Shown here piece after piece: positions 5,320-20,561 of a stretch of 64,000 nucleotides of DNA (the stretch's first letter is position 1; each line of letters begins with the position of its first letter). Location: the NCBI GenBank assembly GCA_902547755.1, contig CACCPA010000002.1, positions 62,001 to 126,000 of the forward strand, read 5' to 3'. The position numbers were made by a program, and so were the translations under genes. The notes below the pieces were generated by a model. The model had not been told where the DNA came from, made no database searches, and was given only the letters and a program-made list of their open reading frames with translations. Source of the DNA: Halieaceae bacterium (GTDB lineage Bacteria > Pseudomonadota > Gammaproteobacteria > Pseudomonadales > Halieaceae).

Positions 5320-5784
5320 CTATTGATACAGCCGAATCCCGTAGGCGCGCCTCAACTCGTCCAGTGGCGTGTTCATCATGTCCTCGGTGACATCTGAATG
5401 CGGCCACTTGGCCGACATACTTCGCACACGACGAACCCAGATCCAGAAAAACAACGGCAGGTAATACGTCAGCAAAAGCGTGTAGGCCTTCACTCGTCCG
5501 CCCATTAACTGAATACCTTCCTCGTTGAGCATCTGCACGTCTGGATCCATTGCGTAGGCCCTAAGCTCGTCTCCATTGATCGTCGTGCCAAAAAGAATCC
5601 ATGGCTTCAAAAGGATCTCTCCCTGAAGCGATGTATCACACCCAAACAGGACATGAGTAAGATCGTGATCGATGAACGTCTTGCCTTTGCGTCGCGAGAC
5701 CACGGCCACTTCTGGCGCATGCCGATACAACTCCTCAAGGCCATCGCGCAGGGTTAAACAACAATCTTGTTGCATGAACTGCAT
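5320..5784 (-). CDS. Short Coq4-like protein with HDxxHx11E metal motif
   Basis: This is a 154-residue protein. Residues 40-56 read HDLTHVLFGCDTSLQGE, an exact match to the HDxxHx(11)E zinc-ligand pattern of Coq4, the ubiquinone-biosynthesis organiser/decarboxylase. A hydrophobic stretch (YTLLLTYYLPLFFWIWV) near residues 100-118 suggests membrane contact. The protein is shorter than mitochondrial Coq4 (over 220 residues). I chose the ATG at 5784 because it follows a G-rich stretch (GGGGGGCGG); a TTG at 5796 and an ATG at 5775 are alternatives. It converges on rpoD. Membership of the Coq4 superfamily is likely from the motif; a role in quinone metabolism is inference. Confidence 0.7.
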   Translation of the reverse strand: MQFMQQDCCLTLRDGLEELYRHAPEVAVVSRRKGKTFIDHDLTHVLFGCDTSLQGEILLKPWILFGTTINGDELRAYAMDPDVQMLNEEGIQLMGGRVKAYTLLLTYYLPLFFWIWVRRVRSMSAKWPHSDVTEDMMNTPLDELRRAYGIRLYQ

Positions 5785-5982
5785 ACCGCCCCCCAACTTT
5801 TTTCTTTAATCCTAGCGTGTTTGATTACGCTCTGCATCCTCACAAAGTCCGCACCCTCGGAAAGCGTTCGTAAGGTGCGATTGAGGTGGCATTGCAGCGG
5901 CAGATACATGGCTGACGAAACGGCTGACGAATTAGAAGCGACCCATCAATCAACTCAGTCATGGGTGCGCGTTTTCGATGGA

Positions 5983-6080: not shown

Positions 6081-6698
6081 ATGACATTAAGCCAAAAGCT
6101 CGCCACACTACTCCTAGCTATCAGCGCGTTATCTGCGCCTTCGTTAGCCGATGATGCATACCAGACGCATTGCGCTTCGTGCCATGACGCTACGGGCGCG
6201 GGCAACCCGTCATTAGGCGCGCCAAACTTAACGCTCTTTTCCAGTGCGTACCTACAGCGTCAGTTGAGGGGCTTTCGGGAGGGATGGCGAGATACAACTG
6301 CCCCCTACACTCAGACCATGAGCTCAGCAGTCGGTGCTTTGGATGCTGACGTCATCGCTGAGGCAGTCCTCGCGATTAATCGCCTCCCTGATTCGCGAAA
6401 AATTTCGGTGGCAAAACCTGCAGCAGGAAACGCGGATCGCGGTGCGGACTTGTACACCGCCTACTGTGGCGCCTGTCATGGAACAACCGCAGGTGGCAAT
6501 GACGCATTGGGTGCGCCCAGTTTACTGGGGCTCAATGGGCGCTACTTGGCACGTCAGTACGGTCATTTTAGTGATGGCCGGCGTGGCTTCCATGCCGATG
6601 ATCGCTATGGGAAGCAGATGACCCGTCTGTCGCGCTCACTCAAAGACCCGTCCCTCATCGATGATGTCAGTGCTTATGTGGCGCAGCTGTCTCAGTAG
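6081..6698 (+). CDS. Periplasmic dihaem cytochrome c (c4-like)
   Basis: This 205-residue protein has a signal peptide (cleavage probably after PSLADD or just before) and two class I cytochrome domains with haem sites CASCH (31-35) and CGACH (129-133). The two halves resemble each other (GAPNLTLFSSAYLQRQLRGF and LGAPSLLGLNGRYLARQYGHF), as in cytochrome c4, a periplasmic electron carrier. Likely axial methionines are in YTQTMSSAV and YGKQMTRLS. It is the first gene of a four-gene unit, and its 3' end overlaps the start of the peroxidase-like gene. I infer that it passes electrons to or from the downstream haem proteins. Confidence 0.9.
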   Translation: MTLSQKLATLLLAISALSAPSLADDAYQTHCASCHDATGAGNPSLGAPNLTLFSSAYLQRQLRGFREGWRDTTAPYTQTMSSAVGALDADVIAEAVLAINRLPDSRKISVAKPAAGNADRGADLYTAYCGACHGTTAGGNDALGAPSLLGLNGRYLARQYGHFSDGRRGFHADDRYGKQMTRLSRSLKDPSLIDDVSAYVAQLSQ

Positions 6699-7890
6699 AT
6701 TTTCGCTGAATGGCCCGAGAGCGCTCGGGCTCTGCACTTTTTTTCTCTGGCTGCCACAGTCACTAACGGCAGACGAACTTCACCATGCATTTGAACTCGC
6801 CACTCACTGCCCGCCCGGTTTCAAACTCACCGAAGAGCGCCGCTGCGAACTCAATAGCTTGTACGATAATTATCATTCGCCGCACGATAGTGGTGTGGGC
6901 GGGCCTCGAGCAGGTCTACCCGAAATTCGCGATGGTTTCTCACCACAGGTCATTGATCTCGGCCGTTATCTTTTCTTCGACCCCATACTGTCGGCAGATA
7001 AGAGCATTGCCTGCTCGAGCTGCCATGACCCCGATTATGGCTTCGCCGACGGACTTGGACGGGCAAGTGGAATTAACAAGACTGTGCTCGACCGCTCGGC
7101 GCCCAGTTTGTGGAACATTGGCTTTTTCGACACCCTGCTTTGGGATGGCAGTAAATCCTCGCTTGAAGAGCAATTGATTGGTCCACTCTATTCTGACAAG
7201 GAAATGGGTAATCGACCTGACCAGCTGATTGCTGACCTGCGATCTAACGCAATCTACCAAAATCTATTCACGGTCGCTTTTGGCCCGGGCGAAATACAAC
7301 TCGATCAGGTCTACACGGCCATAACCGCATTTGAATCGTCGCTCGTATCGCTCAACAGCCGATACGATTTTTACGCGCACGGCCTTCAAACAGCGCTATC
7401 ACCCAGTGAACTCGAAGGGCTCAACGTGTTCCGATCATTCGTTTCTCGCTGTGGTGAATGCCATACACCGCCGCTGTTTAGTAATCAGGAGATCGCCATC
7501 ATCGGCGTGCCTGAACCTGAGGGGCGACCCTTTGATCCGGGTGCTGGAGCAACCTCTGGCATTCCCAGTCAGCGCGGAGGGTTCAGGGTTCCGAGCTTAC
7601 GTAACATTGCAAAAACAGCACCCTATATGCATCAAGGCAATTTCGAGTCACTCAGAGATACCGTTACCTTTTATAACGGCGGGCGTGGCCATGCGGTCCC
7701 TGAGGACGAGAATTTATTGATTCACTGGCATATTTGGGAGCCAGACTTACGCGAGGAAGAACTCGACAGGCTGGTCGATTTCCTACACGCTCTAACGGAT
7801 GAGGGCTTTATGCCCGAAATACCTAGGCGTCTACCCTCTGGGTTAACTCCGGGCCGCGCAATGAACAGGAATAACCTGACATCGAGGTAA
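6661..7890 (+). CDS. MauG/CcpA-type dihaem cytochrome c peroxidase family protein
   Basis: This periplasmic dihaem enzyme is of the bacterial cytochrome c peroxidase/MauG superfamily. Haem sites are CSSCH (118-122) and CGECH (264-268). Typical flanking motifs are present: LGRYLFFDPILS, RSAPSLWN, DGSKSSLEEQ and RVPSLRNIAKTAPYMHQG. Family members reduce peroxide or oxidise protein side chains; which applies here cannot be read from the sequence. The first ATG overlaps the upstream gene by 38 bases; an ATG at 6676 gives a cleaner signal peptide. The next gene starts 5 bases downstream, so the set is probably one transcript. Confidence 0.88.
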   Translation: MMSVLMWRSCLSRFSLNGPRALGLCTFFLWLPQSLTADELHHAFELATHCPPGFKLTEERRCELNSLYDNYHSPHDSGVGGPRAGLPEIRDGFSPQVIDLGRYLFFDPILSADKSIACSSCHDPDYGFADGLGRASGINKTVLDRSAPSLWNIGFFDTLLWDGSKSSLEEQLIGPLYSDKEMGNRPDQLIADLRSNAIYQNLFTVAFGPGEIQLDQVYTAITAFESSLVSLNSRYDFYAHGLQTALSPSELEGLNVFRSFVSRCGECHTPPLFSNQEIAIIGVPEPEGRPFDPGAGATSGIPSQRGGFRVPSLRNIAKTAPYMHQGNFESLRDTVTFYNGGRGHAVPEDENLLIHWHIWEPDLREEELDRLVDFLHALTDEGFMPEIPRRLPSGLTPGRAMNRNNLTSR

Positions 7891-7895
7891 AAATA

Positions 7896-9341
7896 ATGAT
7901 TAGAAAAACCATTTTTAGGGGGCTGTGGCTTTGCAGCATGGCATTAAGCAGCCTGGCGATCGGTGCGGTTCACGAAGTGAAAGACGGCCAATCTATCCAG
8001 GCGGCCGTGACCAAGGCAAAGGCCGGTGACATAATCAAAGTTTTCCCCGGCACTTACCACGAGACTATCTATGTCGATAAAGATGACATTTCGCTCATCG
8101 GCATCGTGGAAAACGGCGAGTGGGCTCACCTCGATGGTGAAAAAATATTGAACGATGCCATTTTGTATTCGGGGAATGGCTTCAGTGTCGAGTGGTTCAA
8201 GATCACCAAGTACAAAGGCAATGCGATCATGGGCCAGTCGGGTAACAACTTCTCGATTCGCAATAACTGGGTCATCGATACCGGTCTGTATGGCATCTTT
8301 CCAGAATTCGGTCACAACGGGCTCATCGAAAACAATATTCTGAGCGGGATCGAGGATGCTGCCATCTACGTTGGCATGTCTGATTACATCGACGTTCGAA
8401 ATAATCAGGTATTCGATAACGTTGCGGGCATCGAAGTGGAAAACAGCCGGCACGTGTTGGTCGAAGGCAACGTCGCACGAAACAATACCGGCGGCATCTT
8501 GGTATTTATTACGCCGGGGCTACCCATCAAGTCGTCTTACGACGCCATTGTCCGACGTAACTTCGTCACCAATAACAACACACCCAACTTCGCCATCCCC
8601 GGTTCGCTAGTGGCAGGTATCCCATCGGGAACGGGCATTTTGGTGATGTCTGGCGATAAAGTCGTTATCGAAGACAACATCATCACTGGCAATAACACTG
8701 GCGGGATTATCGTAACGAGCGGCGACTTTGTGACAGAGGTGGCCAGCGACAAGGATTCAGACCCCCACTCCGATCAGGTCGAAATACGCAACAACGTCAT
8801 GTTCGATAACGGGAACGACCCTGATGGTGAAATGAAACTACTGATGCTGAGCAAGTTCAGCACCAAAGGCCCTGACATTCTCGCTTACCAAAGTGCCACC
8901 GAGAAGGAACGTGGTAGTTGCATTTCTCGGCGTGAGGCCTACCGATCTTATGGACTCGAGGAGTGGGCGGACTGCGATGCGCCGACTGTGCGAGCAGCCG
9001 ATGCGGTTGCCTCTGCCTCTGATATTGGCACCACACGACAGCTCACCACAAAAATGCTGGAAGCACCGGCTGATCCTAGAATCATCACCGCCGATGCCGG
9101 CGGCGCCGAAGTGATATACAACGGGATTTGCGCCGGCTGCCATGCCTATAACGTGCGACTAATCGGACCACCCGCCCTTGTGATTCAAGCGCAGTACGGT
9201 GACGACGCACAGGCGATCGCCAACTATGTAGCCGAGCCTGTGCGCCGACGGCCCGACTTCCCGAACATGCCGCCTCAAGGGCATATCTCGGAAGAGATGA
9301 GGTTACTGGTGGCCGAGTACATGCTAGGGCTGGACGGGTGA
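7896..9341 (+). CDS. Secreted right-handed beta-helix protein fused to a C-terminal cytochrome c domain
   Basis: This 481-residue protein has a signal peptide (about residues 1-23), a long right-handed parallel beta-helix (about 30-310) built of repeats such as NNWVIDTGLYGIF, NNQVFDNVAGIEVENS and DNIITGNNTGGIIV (NosD/pectate-lyase-like fold), a linker, and a haem site CAGCH at 412-416 followed by a cytochrome-like tail with NMPPQGHIS (possible axial Met). Beta-helix proteins usually bind or cleave polysaccharide or present a repetitive surface; no catalytic residues are obvious. The fused haem and the two cytochrome genes upstream point to periplasmic electron transfer. Its stop overlaps the next start by GTGA. 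Confidence 0.88.
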   Translation: MIRKTIFRGLWLCSMALSSLAIGAVHEVKDGQSIQAAVTKAKAGDIIKVFPGTYHETIYVDKDDISLIGIVENGEWAHLDGEKILNDAILYSGNGFSVEWFKITKYKGNAIMGQSGNNFSIRNNWVIDTGLYGIFPEFGHNGLIENNILSGIEDAAIYVGMSDYIDVRNNQVFDNVAGIEVENSRHVLVEGNVARNNTGGILVFITPGLPIKSSYDAIVRRNFVTNNNTPNFAIPGSLVAGIPSGTGILVMSGDKVVIEDNIITGNNTGGIIVTSGDFVTEVASDKDSDPHSDQVEIRNNVMFDNGNDPDGEMKLLMLSKFSTKGPDILAYQSATEKERGSCISRREAYRSYGLEEWADCDAPTVRAADAVASASDIGTTRQLTTKMLEAPADPRIITADAGGAEVIYNGICAGCHAYNVRLIGPPALVIQAQYGDDAQAIANYVAEPVRRRPDFPNMPPQGHISEEMRLLVAEYMLGLDG

Positions 9342-10537
9342 ATTTAATCGCGGTGCAAGACGAGGCACCGCACCGAAAACTATGCACCGATTGTGGCGTC
9401 AGTCGGACGGATGATCCCGGTCGCTGCGGATACACCTGCCAGTTCATAAATCCCGACTACCCACGATTAGAGCAGAGGGCCCATGGCCGTCTGCGTGGTA
9501 CCGAGGGCGACATTGAGCCCTTTTTTGGTGTCATCAAGGAGATGCATCAAGCAGCCCTGAAGCCTGCGCGCCAGGGTGCGCAGTGGACCGGCATAACAAC
9601 ACGCCTTGGAGAAGCACTGTTGGCCTCGGGTGAGGTAACCGCGGTTCTTTGCGTTGGCCCCGATCCAGAAGACAAATGGCGCCCCGTACCTCGACTCATT
9701 ACTGCCGCGGAGGACATGGCGACGTGCCGAGGCATGCGGATGGGCTATGCACCGCTTTTGGAACTGTTGGAACCAGCGATTGCAGCGGGTCACAAACGGC
9801 TCGCGGTCATTGGCATACCCTGCCAGATTTATGCGCTTCGAGCCCTTGAACCGGAGCTAGCCCTCGAGCACTTGGTGGTCATTGGTACGCCTTGCTCCGA
9901 TAACACCACGACAGAGAATTTTCACGAATTTCTCTCGCTGCTTGATGATGATCCCGAGCAGATTAACTACCTCGAATTTATGCCCGACTTTCACGTGGAA
10001 CTCCGGTATGAAACCGGCTCAAAGCGACGCATACCGTTCCTGCAACTTCCTATTGCCGACTTGCGCGATGACTTCTTCCCTTTAACCTGCCGTACCTGCG
10101 TCGATTACGTGAACACGCTGTCAGACATTACTGTGGGCTACATGGGCGGACGCGGCGAGCAGTGGCTACTCGTCCGAAATCAGCGAGGGAAGGCAGTGCT
10201 GGAGCATATCCAGCCAGAGTTATCCCTGACGTCACCGACATCGTCTGGAAAACGGTACTCGGCCGTCAAAGGCTTCATAGAGAATACGCGAAGAGCGACA
10301 GGCGGCTTGCCTCTGCGAAAGATGCCGCAGTGGCTGCGGCCCATTGTGGGGAAAATCATGCCGCTCACCGGCCCGAAAGGTCTTGAATTTGCGAGGACCC
10401 GACTTGAGATGAAGGCCGCGGAATCAATCCTACATTTGCGACGTGCAGCGCCGAAGCGCTTGCGCACCATGATCCCTGAGCACGTTTGGAAACTTGCCGA
10501 GCCCTACGGCATTAACGCTCAAGAAGACGAACGCTGA
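9338..10537 (+). CDS. BciB/HCAR-like Fe-S flavoprotein (FrhB/FdhB family)
   Basis: This 399-residue protein is of the coenzyme F420 hydrogenase/dehydrogenase beta-subunit family. It carries C16-x2-C19-x10-C30-x3-C34, a GIPCQIYALR motif (C162), C186, and CRTC (C251, C254), all candidate [4Fe-4S] ligands. Segments AQWTGI, NYLEFMPDF and CVDYVNTLSDITVGYMG resemble the chlorophyll-pigment reductases BciB (8-vinyl reductase) and HCAR (7-hydroxymethyl chlorophyll a reductase) as I remember them. The start is a GTG overlapping the previous stop (GTGA), implying translational coupling to the cytochrome genes. No bch genes are visible here, so a pigment role is unproven. It has no signal peptide and is presumably cytoplasmic. 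Confidence 0.82.
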   Translation: MNLIAVQDEAPHRKLCTDCGVSRTDDPGRCGYTCQFINPDYPRLEQRAHGRLRGTEGDIEPFFGVIKEMHQAALKPARQGAQWTGITTRLGEALLASGEVTAVLCVGPDPEDKWRPVPRLITAAEDMATCRGMRMGYAPLLELLEPAIAAGHKRLAVIGIPCQIYALRALEPELALEHLVVIGTPCSDNTTTENFHEFLSLLDDDPEQINYLEFMPDFHVELRYETGSKRRIPFLQLPIADLRDDFFPLTCRTCVDYVNTLSDITVGYMGGRGEQWLLVRNQRGKAVLEHIQPELSLTSPTSSGKRYSAVKGFIENTRRATGGLPLRKMPQWLRPIVGKIMPLTGPKGLEFARTRLEMKAAESILHLRRAAPKRLRTMIPEHVWKLAEPYGINAQEDER

Positions 10538-10591: not shown

Positions 10592-11152
10592 GTGGAAGGA
10601 CACACAGTTGCCTACTCTCAGAGCACCATTATCGAACTGATGGTGCCCAGCTACGCCAACTTTGGCGGCAAGGTCCACGGTGGCACACTGATGTCCTTAA
10701 TGGACAAAGTAGCTTACGTCTGTGCCAGTAAGCATGCGGGCAACTATTGCGTGACCGTATCGGTGGATAATGTGGAATTCCTTCAGCCTGTCGAGGTTGG
10801 AGAGGTCATCAAGCTCATGGGATCCGTCAACTATGTAGGCCGCAAGTCGCTCGTGGTAGGTATCAAAGTGGTGGCGGAAAACCTGCAAGCAGGAATCAGT
10901 AAGCACACTAATACCTGCTACTTCACCATGGTTGCCAAAAGCGCCGATGGCAATACGGCTGAGGTGCCACCCCTGATTTTAAAATCTCACGATGACGTGC
11001 GCCGGTTCTTAAGTGCATTGCAACGCAAGCGCCTCCGGATGCAGGACAACGAGTTTATGGACAAATACCGGCAAGACTTCGTTTATGATACGGCGTCAGC
11101 GGAGCTGTTATATGACCAGCGCTGCCACGTACTGCTTGACGCAGAAAAATAA
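10592..11152 (+). CDS. Acyl-CoA thioesterase, hotdog fold (YciA-like)
   Basis: Enzymes of this group hydrolyse acyl-CoA to free acid and CoA. The 186-residue protein shows the hotdog signature NFGGKVHGGTLMSLMDKVAY, then VTVSVDNVEFLQPVEVGE and a buried strand VGRKSLVVGIKV. The Asn/His/Gly-Gly pattern near residues 20-30 is that of acyl-CoA hydrolases. A C-terminal extension of about 50 residues is rich in Arg and Lys. The GTG start at 10592 is supported by AGGAG at 10581-10585. It lies 54 bases after the BciB-like gene and 19 before the Old Yellow Enzyme gene. Confidence 0.88.
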   Translation: MEGHTVAYSQSTIIELMVPSYANFGGKVHGGTLMSLMDKVAYVCASKHAGNYCVTVSVDNVEFLQPVEVGEVIKLMGSVNYVGRKSLVVGIKVVAENLQAGISKHTNTCYFTMVAKSADGNTAEVPPLILKSHDDVRRFLSALQRKRLRMQDNEFMDKYRQDFVYDTASAELLYDQRCHVLLDAEK

Positions 11153-11171: not shown

Positions 11172-12455
11172 ATGCTTAACCAGCCTCTAAACCTGCCCTG
11201 TGGCGCGGTGGTACCTAATCGTATGTGCAAAGCCGCCATGACGGAGGGTCTGGCGCATCCCAATGGGACCGCATCAGCAGAATTAGAGCGGCTCTACGGT
11301 ATTTGGAGTGATGGCGGCTCTGGCATCCTGCTCTCAGGCAATATTCAGGTCGATGGCGATCACCTCGAGCGACCAGGGAATGTGATTGTCGACAGCGCAC
11401 TATCTGATGATGCGTTCGCGGCACTGCAGAGAATGGCAGCCGCAGGCACACGTAACGGCAATCACTTGTGGGCTCAAATAAGCCATGCTGGCAGGCAAAC
11501 ACAGAAAATCGTCAATCCGGCACCCAAGGCCCCCTCTGCTGTTCGATTGCGTTTGCCGCAGAGTCAGTTTGGAGAGCCCGTCGCGCTGACCACGGAAGAG
11601 ATCCAATCGATTGTTGAGCGCTTCGTAGGTTGCGCGGTTACTTGCAAAGAAGCGGGCTTTACCGGTGTGCAGTTTCACTCGGCACACGGCTACCTGCTCT
11701 CTCAGTTCTTGAGCCCGCTAACAAATCAGCGTGAAGATGAGTGGGGCGGCACATTGGAAAATCGCGCTCGAGCGCTCATTGCCATCGTCACTCAAGCACG
11801 CGAGGCACTCGGGACCAACTTCCCCATATCAGTAAAACTTAATAGTGCAGACTTCCAGAAAGGCGGTTTTGATTTTGATGACTCCTTGACGGTAGCCAAG
11901 TGGCTAGCGGATGCGGGCGTTGACTTACTGGAAATTTCCGGTGGTACCTACGAGCAGCCACGATTGCTCAATCTGGATGGTGTCGAGCCGATCGAAGAGC
12001 AGTCACTTGCCAGAAGCACACTGGCACGAGAGGCCTATTTTGTTGATTTTGCGAAGGCGATGCGTGAAAAGCTCTCTATACCCATCATGGTGACAGGTGG
12101 TCTTCGTCGCAAAGAAGTCATGAATCACGTGTTAGAGACAGGCGGTGCCGACATGATTGGCTTGGGCCGCCCTCTGTGTGTCGATGCGGACGGCCCGAAC
12201 CGATTGTTGAACGGAGAAGACGAGCTCGCTCGCTACGAAGACAATCTCTCCTTACTTCCCAGCTGGCTCATGTGGCTGACGAGGTTCAATGCAGTACGGA
12301 CCATCAATTCGTTTGCGACGCAGTTTTGGTTCTACGAGCAGATAGCCAGTATCGGTCGAACGGGCGCTACCGACCCGACGCTCACTGTTTTCTCCGCAAC
12401 GATGGCACAGCAAAAAGCCGCTTCAGCCTGGATGACGGCTAGAAAGGGTAGATAG
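11172..12455 (+). CDS. NADH:flavin oxidoreductase / Old Yellow Enzyme family
   Basis: This is an FMN-dependent ene-reductase-like TIM barrel of 427 residues. It has the start LPCGAVVPNRMCKAAMTEG, the active-site region QISHAGRQ, FTGVQFHSAHGYLLSQFLSP (with the HSAHGYL substrate/FMN motif), NQREDEWGGTLENR and the phosphate-binding MVTGGLR...GADMIGLGRPL. It lacks the Fe-S and NAD-binding extension seen in FadH. The C-terminus, from about residue 345, has an extra aromatic-rich segment (SWLMWLTRFNAVRTI) that may contact the membrane. GGAG precedes the ATG. Substrate unknown; a lipid or enone substrate is suggested only by the neighbouring thioesterase. Confidence 0.9.
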   Translation: MLNQPLNLPCGAVVPNRMCKAAMTEGLAHPNGTASAELERLYGIWSDGGSGILLSGNIQVDGDHLERPGNVIVDSALSDDAFAALQRMAAAGTRNGNHLWAQISHAGRQTQKIVNPAPKAPSAVRLRLPQSQFGEPVALTTEEIQSIVERFVGCAVTCKEAGFTGVQFHSAHGYLLSQFLSPLTNQREDEWGGTLENRARALIAIVTQAREALGTNFPISVKLNSADFQKGGFDFDDSLTVAKWLADAGVDLLEISGGTYEQPRLLNLDGVEPIEEQSLARSTLAREAYFVDFAKAMREKLSIPIMVTGGLRRKEVMNHVLETGGADMIGLGRPLCVDADGPNRLLNGEDELARYEDNLSLLPSWLMWLTRFNAVRTINSFATQFWFYEQIASIGRTGATDPTLTVFSATMAQQKAASAWMTARKGR

Positions 12456-14026: not shown

Positions 14027-15859
14027 CTACTTATGCGGCACTATGTCAAAGGCAACTGTAATTCTTGACTGTGATGACTCGAATGGAACTGTGCCGTGCC
14101 ACATATAGGAAGGAAATAGCACCAGCTTCCCAACCTCTGGCTTCACTGTGCGAACTGAGGGGAGATTGAGTCCCAACTTATCTTCAGGCGCGCCAAACTG
14201 AATGTAGCCAGCATCGTCAGTAGCACCTGCAACCTCATCTGGAACCGCAATATAAAGTGCAGAGCTAATCCAGCCTTTGGGATGCACGTGGTTCGTGTGA
14301 TAACCCTGAGCCCTCAGTCGCACGGACCAAGCGCCGGAAAAAAGAACATCACTGGCAGATGTTCCCTGCACATTACGGCCCCAGAAAGGATGTCGTGGAT
14401 CATTGGGAAAACGACTGATCGCATCGACAACGGCCAGTCGTATTTGTTGCTCCAAACTTTTCACCAGCGGCTCTGCGATGCGAAATAAAAAGCCGTTAGT
14501 TTGTGTGCCACCACGGACACTTTGATCGATGGGATGCGCTTGCGTGTGGTGCAGCGTTTCCAGTACCTCAGCAACCTCGCCAAAATAGGAAGCAGCGCTA
14601 CTGTAGCCACTCGGTACCGGCACCTGTACGTCAAAGACCATGCGATCGTAATCGACAAGTGTCGGTTCTCGCGGGTCATTCATCATGCGTAGTGCAGAGC
14701 AGCGAAACGCGAGCGCCAATTGGTCTTGCGGATCAATTTTCAGAGCGTCTACCAATAGCGATTCGGCCCGATCGGGCTCATTGGCTTTCAAAAGCTGCAC
14801 CGCGAAATCAAATTTGATACCAGTCTCAGTGGGGTATAGGTCAAGGAGGCGTTCAAAGGAAGACACCATGCCATCTCGCCTACCCTCATCGCCCAGCCCA
14901 ATTGCCTCGAGGCTCTGCAGGCCCGGAGTCGATGGGCATCCAGAAGCCAACGCTTCGGCCAACAACGCACGCTGATCGCCTTTGCGATCGAGATACTTCA
15001 AAAAGCCAATCGCTGTCTCCCAAAGTGATGGATTTGTCCGATGCTTCCGCGCCGCTATAATCAAATCCTCGACGGCGTCGCCAGGCGAGTTGCTCTCAAC
15101 GTGAAGTCTGGTCACCACTCTATGTAGCTCAAGGTCTGTCGAGTGGCGATCCAATCCGAGGCGTGCGAAGGCCACTGCGTCATGCGACCTGCCGGACTCC
15201 AACAGGGACTCCGCGGTATTTCGATAAAGATCAGGTGAATCGAACCCCAAAGTGTGCGCCGTCTGATACGCGATAGCTGCGTCTTTGAAGTTGCCCTGTT
15301 CACGACACAACTGGCCTAGGGCGTAATTCAGCATGGCCGAGCCAGGAATCAACCGGATCGCCCGCTCGATCATGCTGACCGCTTCATCCAGTCGCTTTAG
15401 GCGCTGGGCGGCACCAGCCGCTAGCTCCCACGCAGATTCATCCTTGGGAGAAATACTGATCAACTTATTGGCGCTGAATAGTGCTTCGTCACACAGGTCC
15501 AAGCGCAGCTGTGTCATTGCCAATGCCTTCCATGCGTCAGGCATTTGTGGCGCAAGAGACGCGGCTCGCTGGTGGAGGGGCAGTGCCTCGGCTGGCGCCG
15601 CTGTCTCGCGCAGAAAGTTTCCGAAATTCAACAAGAGATCAATGCGATCAGGCGTGACAGTCAACGCTTGGGAAAAAGCGTCTCGCGTAGTCGCCGCGTC
15701 ACCGATTTGGGCGGCCGCCACGCCGAGCATATATAAGGTATTGGGCTCGCGCGGCGCGTAAGAAAGAACCTCGCGGCAGAGCTTAATTCCTGCATCAAAA
15801 CGCCCCTGCATTAAATGCGCTTGAATGCTCTGCACATCCTGTCTCAAATCTCGCTTCAT
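14027..15859 (-). CDS. TPR protein with C-terminal 2OG-Fe(II) oxygenase domain
   Basis: This 610-residue cytoplasmic protein (no signal peptide) has an N-terminal array of tetratricopeptide repeats (about residues 1-390; for example YMLGVAAAQIGD, LLLNFGNFLRE, NYALGQLCREQG) and a C-terminal Fe(II)/2-oxoglutarate oxygenase domain. Likely iron ligands are in HTNHVHPKGW (H521-H526) and MWHGT (H588), with R599 in SRITVAFD for 2-oxoglutarate. This resembles the putative 2OG-Fe(II) oxygenase group with an HxH-type first motif. It is divergent from the TonB receptor gene at 16285, whose other side carries a second TPR-hydroxylase. TPRs probably hold a protein substrate; the substrate is unknown. Confidence 0.87.
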   Translation of the reverse strand: MKRDLRQDVQSIQAHLMQGRFDAGIKLCREVLSYAPREPNTLYMLGVAAAQIGDAATTRDAFSQALTVTPDRIDLLLNFGNFLRETAAPAEALPLHQRAASLAPQMPDAWKALAMTQLRLDLCDEALFSANKLISISPKDESAWELAAGAAQRLKRLDEAVSMIERAIRLIPGSAMLNYALGQLCREQGNFKDAAIAYQTAHTLGFDSPDLYRNTAESLLESGRSHDAVAFARLGLDRHSTDLELHRVVTRLHVESNSPGDAVEDLIIAARKHRTNPSLWETAIGFLKYLDRKGDQRALLAEALASGCPSTPGLQSLEAIGLGDEGRRDGMVSSFERLLDLYPTETGIKFDFAVQLLKANEPDRAESLLVDALKIDPQDQLALAFRCSALRMMNDPREPTLVDYDRMVFDVQVPVPSGYSSAASYFGEVAEVLETLHHTQAHPIDQSVRGGTQTNGFLFRIAEPLVKSLEQQIRLAVVDAISRFPNDPRHPFWGRNVQGTSASDVLFSGAWSVRLRAQGYHTNHVHPKGWISSALYIAVPDEVAGATDDAGYIQFGAPEDKLGLNLPSVRTVKPEVGKLVLFPSYMWHGTVPFESSQSRITVAFDIVPHK

Positions 15860-16284: not shown

Positions 16285-19200
16285 ATGAAATCTTTTAACA
16301 AAAACTACCTCAGTCATGCGGTAGCAGCAGCAGTCGCTTCGACATTGCCAGGTTTTGCGTTCGCGCAGGACGAAGAGGCAGGTATCGAAGAGATTGTAGT
16401 AACCGGTTCGCGTTTGACCAAATCAAACGTTACATCTTCAGTACCTCTAGTGCAGATCGGTGCGGAAGAAATCAATAGCCGCGGTGTAGCCCGTGTCGAA
16501 GACGTCGTTAACATCCTGCCCAATGTCTTTGTTTCCCAGACTGCAGAGGTTGCTAACGGCGCAAACGGCACCTCAACACTCAACCTTCGCGGCTTAGGTT
16601 CGACTCGAACACTCGTACTGATCGACGGAAAGCGACTTCCATTTGGTAGTCCGTTCTCATCTTCAGCCAACGTCGACATGATCCCATCTAGGATGGTGGA
16701 GCGTGTCGATATTGTCACTTCGGGTGCTTCTGCGGTATACGGTTCTGACGCGGTAGCAGGTGTTGTTAACTTCATTACCAAGAAAGATTTCGAAGGTTTT
16801 GAGTTCGACTACCAGTACAGCACGAACTACAACGAGAATTCTAACGGTTACATGGAGAACCTGCTCGCAGATGCGGACTTCTTCGATCCAGGTGCAACTA
16901 CAGCTGGTGAAGCAAGCCTCATGTCTGTCTTGATGGGCGTTAACAGCGACGACGGTCGTGGCAACATTACACTCTTCGGTACATATGAAGACATGGAATC
17001 CATGATCGGAAAGGATCGTGATACAGGTGCCTGTACTCTGTTCGGTTCTTCTGACCCCTTCTGTGGTGGTTCATCTAACTTCCGTCGCTTCAATGGTACT
17101 ATCGGTAACGGTGTAGCCGGAACTGTGTTCCAGGAGCTCAACGGCGAACTGGTTCCATTCTCTGGTCGCTCTGACATGTATTACAACTACGGTGCGGTAA
17201 ACCACTATCAGCGCCCTGTCGAGCGTTGGAACTTGGGTGCAAGTGGTCACTATGAACTTACAGAGTCGGTAGAGGCCTACTTTGACACCACGTACATGAA
17301 CAACAAGACGGTTGCGCAGATTGCTGAGTCAGCATCTTTTAACAGGCCTTTCTCGACCAACTGCGACAACCCACTGCTATTCGGTGGTAATCCCAACAAC
17401 AACCCAGACGGTGTGCGGCTGGGTGATATGACGGGTACATTTGACGCCGATGGAAACTTCATCAGTTGCATCGATTGGATAGCTGCTGGCAACGAGTCCG
17501 TGGACGTTCAGTTCATCAACTCGCACCGTAATATTGAAGGTGGCCCTCGCCAAAGCACATATGAAAACAGCACATGGCGCGCGATCTTTGGTATGCGTGG
17601 TGATATTACCGATGATTTCTCGTTTGATATCTTTGCGCAGTACGCTGCCACTGAGGGGACCCGGATCTCTCAAAATGACCTAAACTTCAACCGCGTCCAA
17701 CAGGCACTTTACATTGTCGACGATGGGTCAGGTAATCCTGTCTGCCGCGATACTAGCGGTGGCTGTGTGCCATGGGATATCTTTACGCGCGGCGCGGACG
17801 GCTCTACAAACGTTACGGATGAAGCAGCCGCGTTTATTATGGGCGTGGGTATAGTGACGGGTGATACTGAGCAGACTGTCTTCGGCGGTACTATCGAAGG
17901 TGATCTGACTAACTTTGGCATCAAGAGCCCAATGGCAGATGCGGGTATGACAGGCCTGGTTGGTTTCGAATACCGCGAAGATTTCTTGGGGCGTTTGTCA
18001 GATGACATTTCTAAGCAATCGGGCGGCCGTGGTTTGACTGGTACAGGTGGTGCGACACTACCGATCTCTGGTGAAATTGAAGTCGAAGAACTGTTCATGG
18101 AAGTGTCTATGCCCCTGGTCACTGGTCAGCCAATGATCCAGGAGCTGGGTCTCAATGCCGGTTACCGGTATTCCGACTACACGACCAACGGTAATGGCGT
18201 GTCGAATACATTCGATGCAGATACTTACTTCGCTGGCCTAAGTTGGGCGCCCAATGATGACATTAGATTCCGTGTGAACCAATCGGTTGCGATTCGTGCG
18301 CCGAACGTATTTAACCTCTACGTGGGTATCAACACGGGTTTGGTTGAGTTATCGCCTGTTAACGGTGATGGTGACCAGTGCTCTGGTCCTAATCCAGTAG
18401 CAACTCAGGCACAGTGTGCGAACACTGGTCTGTCTGCGGCTCAGTACGGAACAGTTGATCCAAGTGCGGCGGGTCAGTTCAACCTGATCACTGGCGGTAA
18501 CCCTAACCTGGTTGCCGAGCGCGGTGAGACTACAACGTTCGGTGTTGTTATCACGCCTAGCATGATAGAGGACCTATCAATCGCAATCGACTACTTCGAT
18601 ATCGAAGTAACCAACGCGATTGGTAGTGTACCCGCTCAGACTTCATACGATCGTTGTTTAACAACAGGTGATCCTGCGTTCTGTGCGAATATCACTCGTG
18701 ACACTGCGGGCACGCTTCACTTGTTGAACGAAGCACCTGGCGGTGGCCTCGCGGGTATTAGTACTCAAAACGTCAACGTAGCAACCGACGCCACAGAGGG
18801 TATCGACGTTAACATCACATACTCACTCGATATGAGCGATATGGGATCAATTAACTTTGATTACGCGGCAACATTCCTGGATACCAATTACACAATTGCT
18901 ATCCCTGGTGATGACAAGGTGGAATGTACAGATGCATATGCGGGGCCTTGTGGTTTGCCTGCGCCTGAATATAACCACCGCTTACTTGCGACTTGGGTGA
19001 GTCCTTATGACGTAAGAGTTTCTGCGACTTGGCGTCACGTAGGTGAGACAACACTCTACGGTCTGACGGATCCACAAGGTTATCTGGAAGATAAAATGGA
19101 AGAGCGTAACTACCTTGACCTAGCTGCAACGTATGATTACAGCGAGAACGTACAGGTTCGTATCGGTGCCAACAACCTGTTGGGTGAAGACGCACCTGTC

Positions 19201-19299
19201 ACAACTTCATCAGGCACAGGTACTGGCAACAACAATACCTACCCTGGTCTATTTGACGTAAGCACCTACTTGTTCGCTGGTGTAACCGTCAAGTTCTAA
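16285..19299 (+). CDS. TonB-dependent outer-membrane receptor
   Basis: This 1004-residue receptor imports a ligand across the outer membrane using TonB/ExbBD energy. It has a signal peptide ending in FAFAQ, then a TonB-box-like EIVVTGSRL, a plug domain (about residues 50-170, with LNLRGLGSTRTLVLIDGKR and SGASAVYGSDAVAGVVNFI) and a long 22-strand barrel ending in a terminal Phe (GVTVKF). It is of the long Caulobacter/Sphingomonas-like group often linked to carbohydrate or peptide uptake. Several Cys pairs occur in predicted loops. Both flanking genes encode TPR-hydroxylases. A strong SD and a downstream terminator suggest high monocistronic expression. Ligand unknown. Confidence 0.95.
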   Translation: MKSFNKNYLSHAVAAAVASTLPGFAFAQDEEAGIEEIVVTGSRLTKSNVTSSVPLVQIGAEEINSRGVARVEDVVNILPNVFVSQTAEVANGANGTSTLNLRGLGSTRTLVLIDGKRLPFGSPFSSSANVDMIPSRMVERVDIVTSGASAVYGSDAVAGVVNFITKKDFEGFEFDYQYSTNYNENSNGYMENLLADADFFDPGATTAGEASLMSVLMGVNSDDGRGNITLFGTYEDMESMIGKDRDTGACTLFGSSDPFCGGSSNFRRFNGTIGNGVAGTVFQELNGELVPFSGRSDMYYNYGAVNHYQRPVERWNLGASGHYELTESVEAYFDTTYMNNKTVAQIAESASFNRPFSTNCDNPLLFGGNPNNNPDGVRLGDMTGTFDADGNFISCIDWIAAGNESVDVQFINSHRNIEGGPRQSTYENSTWRAIFGMRGDITDDFSFDIFAQYAATEGTRISQNDLNFNRVQQALYIVDDGSGNPVCRDTSGGCVPWDIFTRGADGSTNVTDEAAAFIMGVGIVTGDTEQTVFGGTIEGDLTNFGIKSPMADAGMTGLVGFEYREDFLGRLSDDISKQSGGRGLTGTGGATLPISGEIEVEELFMEVSMPLVTGQPMIQELGLNAGYRYSDYTTNGNGVSNTFDADTYFAGLSWAPNDDIRFRVNQSVAIRAPNVFNLYVGINTGLVELSPVNGDGDQCSGPNPVATQAQCANTGLSAAQYGTVDPSAAGQFNLITGGNPNLVAERGETTTFGVVITPSMIEDLSIAIDYFDIEVTNAIGSVPAQTSYDRCLTTGDPAFCANITRDTAGTLHLLNEAPGGGLAGISTQNVNVATDATEGIDVNITYSLDMSDMGSINFDYAATFLDTNYTIAIPGDDKVECTDAYAGPCGLPAPEYNHRLLATWVSPYDVRVSATWRHVGETTLYGLTDPQGYLEDKMEERNYLDLAATYDYSENVQVRIGANNLLGEDAPVTTSSGTGTGNNNTYPGLFDVSTYLFAGVTVKF

Positions 19300-19355: not shown

Positions 19356-20561
19356 ATGGCAACCAGCATCAAACCTACGTGGACACACCCGATGACAACC
19401 GGTATTCAATCCTCTACCAATCCGCAGCAACTTCTGGGCGATGCCATTGCGGCACTTCGCGCAACACAACCCGAGAACGCTGTTTTACTGGCTCGGCAGG
19501 CGGTAGAGCTCGGCCTTGATGACACTACGGTCTGGGGCGTCATTGCACTCGCCAGTCGTAATATGGGTCACTACGAGGCAGCACACGAGGCGGCAGACCG
19601 CGCAATCGCCCATGACGGGCGTAACGCCCGGGCTTTCGTCGTAAAGGGTGATGCCTTTTTCGCACAGAATAACCCCCGAGCGGCGGCCGCGTTTTATCAG
19701 CGAGGTCTAACCCTGAGTCCGTTGCACCCTGACATGGTTCAGGAAATCCGAGTTGAATTTCTGCGGGCACAGACCCGATTGCAAGATTTGCAGAAAGCCT
19801 TCAGCGAGCACATGATCAAGGAGGTGCAACCGCTGTTGGATGATACCGACCGTTGTACCCCTCGCATGCAAGGCGCTGTCGATTTACTGCTAGGTAAACG
19901 GCGTCTTTACTATCCTGAGCCGCGACACATCATGGTGCCCGATTTACCCATTCACGAGTTCTACCCTCGAGATCATTTCCCATGGCTCGAGGAGCTCGAG
20001 AGTAAAACGTCTGTCATTCTGGATGAACTCAACGCATTGATTACGCATGGAACGTCGTTTGACCCCTACCTCACCAAAAGCAATGAACGACCTGTCTTTG
20101 ATACACACGGTATGGCAGGTAATGACGACTGGGGCGCGTTTTACCTCTGGAAGAACGGCGAGGCGATCACTGAGAATCAGACGCTTTGCCCAAAAACAAC
20201 ACAGGCTATGAGCGCGCTACCATTGGTGTTTTCAGGTGAGCGTTGTCCCAATATCCTGTTTTCGCGTCTGAAAGCAGGCGCGACCATCCCGCCTCATAAC
20301 GGCATGATTAACAGCCGCCTGATTGGGCATCTTCCACTCATCATCCCGGATGATTGTGGCTTTCGCGTGGGCAACCAGATACGCCCTTGGGTCTTAGGCG
20401 AGGCATTCTTGTTCGACGACACAATCGAACATGAGGCATGGAACCACTCATCGGAAGATCGTTTCGTTTTGATATTCGAAGTCTGGAAACCCGAACTCAA
20501 TGAAGCAGAGCAAGCGCTTATTACCCGCATGCTGACTGCAGTGGATAGTTATGGCGCTTAG
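19356..20561 (+). CDS. TPR protein with aspartyl/asparaginyl beta-hydroxylase (AspH-like) domain
   Basis: The 401-residue cytoplasmic protein has N-terminal TPRs (about residues 20-150) and a C-terminal AspH/LpxO-type hydroxylase domain. The motif set is IPPHNGMINSRLIGHLPLI (H314, H325), GEAFLFDDTIEHEAWN (H359) and DRFVLIFEVWKPE, matching the two-histidine iron site and 2-oxoglutarate Arg/His of AspH enzymes, which hydroxylate Asp/Asn side chains or lipid A. It directly follows the receptor terminator. No clear SD is seen for ATG 19356 or ATG 19392, so the start is uncertain. It probably works with the receptor or the oxygenase at 14027, an inference from position. Confidence 0.88.
   Translation: MATSIKPTWTHPMTTGIQSSTNPQQLLGDAIAALRATQPENAVLLARQAVELGLDDTTVWGVIALASRNMGHYEAAHEAADRAIAHDGRNARAFVVKGDAFFAQNNPRAAAAFYQRGLTLSPLHPDMVQEIRVEFLRAQTRLQDLQKAFSEHMIKEVQPLLDDTDRCTPRMQGAVDLLLGKRRLYYPEPRHIMVPDLPIHEFYPRDHFPWLEELESKTSVILDELNALITHGTSFDPYLTKSNERPVFDTHGMAGNDDWGAFYLWKNGEAITENQTLCPKTTQAMSALPLVFSGERCPNILFSRLKAGATIPPHNGMINSRLIGHLPLIIPDDCGFRVGNQIRPWVLGEAFLFDDTIEHEAWNHSSEDRFVLIFEVWKPELNEAEQALITRMLTAVDSYGA

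Follow-up and report, generated by a model that had tools for sequence, protein, structure and literature searches.

Two gene modules in one overlapping run of a Halieaceae bacterium: a conserved MauG-like diheme enzyme and beta-helix-cytochrome pair, and a probable BciB-type 8-vinyl reductase

The DNA considered here, referred to below as the window, is a stretch of 64,000 nucleotides from a Halieaceae bacterium (assembly GCA_902547755.1, contig CACCPA010000002.1, positions 62,001 to 126,000), and is part of a 202,826-base contig (C2) of a 2.09 Mb genome that is 72% complete. Four genes follow one another on its plus strand. The first (6081-6698; 205 aa) encodes a cytochrome c4-like diheme c-type cytochrome, the second (6661-7890; 409 aa) a MauG/MbnH-like diheme enzyme, the third (7896-9341; 481 aa) a protein that joins a right-handed beta-helix (TIGR03805) to a monohaem cytochrome c domain at its C-terminus, and the fourth (9338-10537) a BciB-type Fe-S flavoprotein of the FrhB/HCAR superfamily, probably the C8-vinyl reductase of bacteriochlorophyll synthesis. 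To simplify the discussion we will refer to these as the small cytochrome, the diheme enzyme, the fusion protein and the flavoprotein respectively, and to the first three together as the trio. Genes 1 and 2 overlap by 38 bases, genes 2 and 3 are separated by 5 bases, and genes 3 and 4 share the four bases GTGA. There are five CxxCH sites in total, two in the small cytochrome (residues 31 and 129), two in the diheme enzyme (118 and 264), one in the fusion protein (412) and none in the flavoprotein; the first three proteins have N-termini that resemble export signals, as judged by eye, and the flavoprotein does not. An earlier note on this DNA had described the same-strand arrangement, the overlaps, the gap and the five haem sites, and all are borne out by the coordinates of the open reading frames (ORFs) and the motif positions. 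It had also held a single transcript to be probable, which the gene spacing fits. Because of this spacing the four genes are probably co-transcribed; promoter- and terminator-like matches across the region are at chance level, and the claim is drawn from the spacing.

Profile and structure comparisons identify the members of the trio. The small cytochrome matches Cytochrom_C at 54.5 bits, above the curated cut-off, and is c4-like; both of its CxxCH sites and Met80 are kept in all 41 aligned rows, and Met180 in 40 of them. The diheme enzyme matches CCP_MauG (PF03150) at 158.3 bits (cut-off 25.6), and its best NCBIfam matches are the MbnH and MauG models. Its invariant Phe337-Tyr338 falls on residues 293-294 of MauG, where Tyr294 is a tyrosine axial haem ligand. 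Tyr338 is invariant in alignments of 17 and 35 sequences and kept in 47/48 in another, and Trp161 and Glu181 are likewise invariant. The AlphaFold model of this enzyme has its top structural match, at Z 23.9, in 6e1c, a "MauG-like protein associated with microbial copper homeostasis". The fusion protein matches Beta_helix at 112 bits and TIGR03805 at 192.9 bits against a cut-off of 141.5, and its C-terminal cytochrome domain, which is below the Pfam cut-offs, resembles c555/c551 proteins when a profile of its relatives is used. For the weaker relatives in the order, those at E above 1e-50, the match is confined to the beta-helix part. From their conservation, Met80, Met180 and Met458 are inferred haem ligands.

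The AlphaFold model of the fusion protein has a predicted local distance difference test (pLDDT) score of 84, and its residues 25-365 match the mannuronan C5-epimerases AlgE4 and AlgE6 (2pyg, 5lw3) with Z of about 32 over 283-286 residues. In AlgE4, Tyr149, Asp152 and His154 are residues with epimerase roles, and lie within the motif YGFDPH (149-154). The fusion protein has YGIFP, so that YGxxP is common to both and the Tyr is kept, with loss of the Asp and His; in this comparison, whose register is at the level of the motif and is not taken from coordinates, the three AlgE4 residues correspond to Tyr132, Phe135 and Glu/Gln137. Plain epimerase chemistry is unlikely in the fusion protein because the Asp152 and His154 positions appear to be occupied by Phe135 and Glu/Gln137.

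The surroundings of these genes in other genomes divide the run in two. Related loci were taken as the best 80 of 403 relatives of the fusion gene, and adjacency counts lean to the closer ones. A gene was scored as adjacent, by tblastn, if it lay on the same strand and upstream within 1.6 kb (diheme enzyme) or 3.5 kb (small cytochrome), and enough upstream sequence to judge this was available at 75 and 70 of the 80 loci respectively. The diheme enzyme gene lies in this position in 74/75 loci and the small cytochrome gene in 57/70: the three exported haem proteins are a recurring combination. Co-occurrence of all four genes, on which that note had staked its single unit, fails: the flavoprotein gene accompanies the fusion gene in 10/80 loci, which are the ten closest to the window and of Luminiphilus type, and two further close loci (L206 and L210) stop inside the fusion gene. 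Other samples comprised 28 order-level regions, 140 genomes of the family (28 genera), 57 genomes of the window's genus, some of them recorded as Luminiphilus, and 398 Pseudomonadota genomes. The order-level regions have the diheme enzyme gene by the fusion gene in 27 cases (the 28th meets a contig end), the small cytochrome gene in 21 and the flavoprotein gene in none. Within the family the fusion gene, counted at E <= 1e-60, is present in 92/140 genomes (20/28 genera), and the flavoprotein gene in 18/140, all within the window's genus. Among the 398 genomes, 7 carry the fusion gene and 15 the flavoprotein gene, and the window's own genome is the only one common to both. Because the two distributions are independent, we propose that the run consists of two functionally separate modules, 6081-9341 and 9338-10537, and we consider this very probable.

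Within the genus the junction between the two modules can be followed more closely. The order trio then flavoprotein is found in 11 of the 12 flavoprotein-bearing regions examined, the window included. In the ten flavoprotein-bearing relatives that have the trio the genes are intact, with identities of 85-98% for the fusion protein, 83-98% for the flavoprotein, 75-95% for the diheme enzyme and 41-87% for the small cytochrome. In the twelfth region (genome G300) the order is dnaG-rpoD-flavoprotein, with the flavoprotein gene starting 8 bases 3' of rpoD and no intervening trio, and a divergent pair of diheme enzyme and fusion genes is located elsewhere in the genome. In eight genus regions that lack the flavoprotein gene the trio is situated some 0.1 to 6.6 kb 3' of rpoD. 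The flavoprotein of G300 and the other Luminiphilus flavoproteins tested are sister groups (support 98/99), and the G300 RpoD groups with flavoprotein-less genomes in a midpoint-rooted tree.

The diheme enzyme and the fusion protein constitute a conserved gene pair, the former with a Tyr at the position of MauG Tyr294. The pair spans phyla, being found in Gammaproteobacteria, in Bacteroidota and, through a plasmid search, in Ruegeria pomeroyi DSS-3, where the set is on the megaplasmid and a TPR protein is inserted between diheme enzyme and fusion protein (L176, 8907-9980), whose genes there are SPO_RS20600 and SPO_RS20610; the same insertion is seen in genome G177 (L037, 8029-9099). Some neighbour families were scanned around 81 loci, and those that recur are the TonB receptor family (24), the SDR family (17), LytTR (7), AraC (5), benzaldehyde-dehydrogenase-like (5) and SusD-like (4) proteins. 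The gene-order table for these families leaves out L176, L206, L210, L228 and L233, which are without a clustered fusion ORF; all but L176 are in the tblastn adjacency count. Several other neighbours (rpoD, dnaG, atpD) are plainly unrelated. Taken together the neighbours suggest that an organic compound is taken up and oxidised, a hint that is not decisive. A literature search found no description of the trio.

Individual Bacteroidota loci show further arrangements. In L243, L247, L249 and L259 the pair is flanked by a LytTR regulator on one side and on the other by a TonB receptor with a SusD-like protein (these two were scanned in L247 only). A benzaldehyde-dehydrogenase-like gene comes no more than a few genes after the pair in L243, L253, L254 and L259.

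A plausible explanation is that the trio forms a periplasmic oxidation system, in which H2O2 would probably drive a diheme enzyme of MauG type to oxidise either the beta-helix-cytochrome protein itself or a ligand bound on its alginate-epimerase-like groove. Electrons would then reach the respiratory chain by way of the cytochrome c domain of the fusion protein and of the c4-like small cytochrome, the likely electron carrier of the trio. We regard this MauG-like mechanism, with regard to the reaction, its substrate and the direction in which electrons move, as tentative, a serious possibility that stops short of probable. Several observations count against it. The diheme enzyme is below the NCBIfam cut-offs for both MauG (TIGR03791, 156.9 against 443.85 bits) and MbnH (TIGR04039, 197 against 362.85 bits), and its AlphaFold model is middling (pLDDT 71). 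The small cytochrome was not found at 13/70 loci, 12 of which are from Bacteroidota. In addition, the fusion protein has no invariant Trp in the wider 17-row alignment, Trp76 being nearly invariant in the closer 42-row alignment and replaced in several wider relatives, and therefore it offers no clear target for the Trp modification carried out by MauG and MbnH; modification of that kind was rejected. Tyr54, Tyr132 and Tyr158 of the fusion protein are invariant in both the wider and the closer sets. It is conceivable, and we would call it a long shot, that the MauG-like protein oxidises conserved Tyr residues of the beta-helix (for instance Tyr132, perhaps together with the nearly invariant Lys107) into a protein-derived cofactor, and that this cofactor dehydrogenates a sugar-acid or other polymer ligand in the epimerase-like groove and passes the electrons to the built-in cytochrome c.

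The alternative that fares best is that the trio is an ordinary periplasmic defence against H2O2, made up of a diheme cytochrome c peroxidase, a c4-like donor and the fusion protein as a docking or accessory donor. Such a system would have the CCP_MauG domain and the adjoining c4-like donor gene that we see, the best PDB sequence matches of the diheme enzyme are classical diheme peroxidases, and the structural score of 6e1c is tied with those of classical peroxidases; the last two points are also to be set against a MauG-like enzyme. Classical diheme cytochrome c peroxidases have a Met axial ligand on the second haem, and the diheme enzyme has an invariant Tyr at the position of MauG Tyr294, which may stand in its place. 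A near-obligate beta-helix partner, with TonB or SusC/D neighbours in part of the loci, would also be unexpected for simple detoxification, and on balance we consider this explanation unlikely, if still to be taken seriously.

We give distinctly less credence to a role of the trio in copper handling, on the model of NosD and of the MbnH/MbnP pair. The NosD and MbnH models do match, below their cut-offs, and NosDFY structures are among the fold matches of the fusion protein; the NosD match (TIGR04247) reaches 51.5 bits, with the cut-off at 300, and no conserved His/Met copper set was noticed among the beta-helix invariants. No MbnP-like partner or nos genes were seen in the few neighbour families scanned, a scan that did not include a search with the MbnP model, and the conserved co-encoded partner of the diheme enzyme is the beta-helix fusion.

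The second module has a different setting. Its flavoprotein matches the N and C domains of FrhB_FdhB at 74 and 90 bits, above the curated cut-offs, and its nearest solved relative is HCAR, the plant 7-hydroxymethyl chlorophyll a reductase (5dqr; E 1.3e-68 over residues 11-398), the next best match being at E 2.4e-15. Eight Cys residues (C16, C19, C30, C34, C162, C186, C251 and C254), the number needed for two [4Fe-4S] clusters, are kept in 22 rows, 21 of them distinct, the exceptions being an X at C19 in one row and a Met at C30 in Thiodictyon. With reaction-centre genes scored as matches to PF00124, all 15 flavoprotein carriers among the 398 genomes are included in the 31 that have such genes (hypergeometric P 5e-19, ancestry disregarded). 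In the window's genus reaction-centre genes are present in 44 of the 57 genomes, the window's own included, and in 18/18 carriers of the flavoprotein. In genome G551 the flavoprotein gene is 8 kb from a reaction-centre gene and adjoins a squalene/phytoene synthase gene. In the other carriers of the 398-genome sample it is far from the reaction-centre genes or on a separate contig, and in the window's genome the two are on contigs C2 and C3 respectively. Outside the genus, flavoprotein neighbours were examined in 8 of the 14 carrier genomes, and no trio genes were found in these eight regions of 14-20 kb, nor around a 36% homologue in Thiodictyon that is situated 2 kb from bchI, within a bchI-bchD-bchO stretch (bchD encodes magnesium chelatase subunit D). 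A link between the trio and phototrophy was rejected, as the window's genome is the only one of the 31 with reaction-centre genes that is also among the 7 carriers of the fusion gene.

Homology to the BciB/HCAR branch and the association with phototrophy are matched by a lack of overlap with BciA, the unrelated 8-vinyl reductase. Among the NAD_binding_10 proteins of relatives that lack the flavoprotein, a sequence motif picked out proteins of the DVR/BciA type, homologues of which lie 7 kb (G344) and 1 kb (G677) from reaction-centre genes. In the 57 genomes of the genus BciA is found in 29, the flavoprotein in 18, both in none and neither in 10; of the remaining 30 phylum-sample genomes with reaction-centre genes, 14 have the flavoprotein, 10 have BciA, none has both and 6 have neither. 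The exchange of one for the other recurs within single families (f50, f84, f94 and the window's own, f1). We propose that the flavoprotein is, in all likelihood, the 8-vinyl reductase of bacteriochlorophyll synthesis, and the label BciB-like given by the earlier note is right. In the cytoplasm it would turn 8-vinyl into 8-ethyl chlorophyllide for bacteriochlorophyll a, using flavin and Fe-S clusters, and would take the place of BciA in this lineage.

There are points on the other side here as well. The identity of BciA rests on similarity to that motif and on position in G344 and G677, not on a curated model, NCBIfam having no model named BciA; the P values for exclusion (4e-8 and 2.7e-4) ignore shared ancestry; and 8 of the 29 BciA carriers of the genus, all of them incomplete metagenome-assembled genomes, have no detected reaction-centre gene. 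Neither reductase was found in 6/30 other phototrophs and in five reaction-centre-positive genomes of the genus, namely G275 (L121; 96% complete), G281 (L123), G282 (L120), G268 and G298. Because some phototrophs have neither, BciA and BciB are not the whole story of 8-vinyl reduction, and the five genus genomes may be explained by missing sequence, by another 8-vinyl reductase or by reduction through chlorophyllide oxidoreductase (COR) only, an activity that PMC4214422 describes. Acaryochloris carries both reductases, according to PMC4836224, and therefore the exclusion is no general law; in that work its genes were expressed in Synechocystis without bciB. The BciB of Synechocystis was inactive when placed in R. 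sphaeroides (PMC4214422, which also cites a Chlorobaculum tepidum bciA mutant).

An enzyme of the HCAR/FrhB family with some other substrate would also account for the homology, the FrhB superfamily being functionally diverse. The top solved match acts on 7-hydroxymethyl chlorophyll, and the third N-terminal Cys is displaced relative to HCAR. Among the samples searched the flavoprotein is found only in reaction-centre genomes and never alongside BciA, and chlorophyll b would not be expected in these bacteria; we consider a different substrate improbable. Finally, the earlier note's proposal that all four genes serve one pathway, in which the cytochromes exchange electrons with the fusion protein and the flavoprotein processes a related compound in the cytoplasm, draws on the overlapping ORFs and on an order that is constant in ten relatives of the Luminiphilus clade, but we reject it as very improbable on the distributions given above (10/80 loci, 0/28 order regions, 18/140 against 92/140, and 15 against 7 of 398) and on the occurrence of the flavoprotein without the trio in G300 and in the eight regions of other phototrophs.

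Our interpretation as a whole, that of two modules comprising a MauG-type oxidation trio and a BciB, has in our estimate a probability of roughly three in four. What stands from the earlier interpretation is the spacing and the recurring trio; membership of the flavoprotein in the same pathway is not borne out, and it tracks bacteriochlorophyll synthesis instead. The overlapping ORFs, and an order that is stable within one clade, still give some weight to a link specific to the lineage. The locus is a cautionary case, in which the overlap of genes is no proof of a shared pathway. In the trio, a widespread and apparently undescribed pair joins a diheme enzyme of MauG type with an epimerase-like beta-helix that has a cytochrome of its own. 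As for the flavoprotein, a literature search for an 8-vinyl reductase in Luminiphilus found no papers. PMC3176799 reports that the core genes common to the analysed photosynthesis gene clusters of aerobic anoxygenic phototrophs cover the route to bacteriochlorophyll a except for the 8-vinyl reductase, and the candidates for the step left open there would be BciB for one clade of Luminiphilus and, for others (genome G247 among them), BciA, with no overlap in the genomes searched and with swaps within several families.

Beyond the flavoprotein the plus strand continues, after gaps of 54 and 19 bases respectively, with a hotdog-fold thioesterase gene (4HBT; 10592-11152), kept 3' of the flavoprotein in its clade, and a gene for an Old Yellow Enzyme family NADH:flavin oxidoreductase (11172-12455), kept 3' of the thioesterase in the clade where the contig extends far enough. 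Because these two genes continue on the same strand the run may be longer than four genes, and the thioesterase is possibly in the same transcript as the flavoprotein. The two genes were not found adjoining the flavoprotein in G300, nor adjoining the trio in the eight genus regions that lack the flavoprotein. On the other side, at 5323-5796 on the minus strand, is a 158-aa protein with an HDxxH-x11-E motif, which we take to be a Coq4-type signature; it has no Pfam match, and its family recurs at 6 of the related loci. Further along the window a TonB receptor (16285-19299) is flanked by a TPR protein with a 2OG-Fe(II) oxygenase domain (14030-15859) and by an aspartyl/asparaginyl hydroxylase with TPRs (19356-20558).

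The known systems closest to the two modules differ from them in defined ways. With BciB, as represented by Synechocystis slr1923 and Chloroherpeton Ctha_1208 in PMC4214422 and PMC4836224, the flavoprotein shares a full-length FrhB/HCAR-type match and the eight Cys residues, and it is confined here to reaction-centre genomes, alternating with BciA; it differs in belonging to a proteobacterial subfamily in which the third N-terminal Cys is displaced, and in being encoded 3' of a periplasmic haem trio on a contig other than that of the reaction-centre genes. The beta-helix of the fusion protein meets the curated cut-off of the TIGR03805 proteins, from which it is set apart by its C-terminal monohaem cytochrome c and its pairing with a MauG-like enzyme, and it shares the fold with AlgE4 and AlgE6 and YGxxP with AlgE4, the equivalents of Asp152 and His154 apparently being replaced. 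Like MauG and MbnH (PDB 3l4m and 6e1c), the diheme enzyme has a diheme c CCP_MauG fold, a Tyr at the Tyr294 position and one dedicated co-encoded partner. Unlike them, it is under both curated cut-offs, it has an invariant N-terminal Cys pair (C50 and C62) and an HWH motif (355-357), and its partner is a beta-helix-cytochrome c fusion without a Trp that is invariant in the wider set. If a Tyr-derived cofactor were indeed formed on the fusion protein, the trio would be a beta-helix counterpart of methylamine dehydrogenase and MauG, and would represent a new class of redox enzyme.

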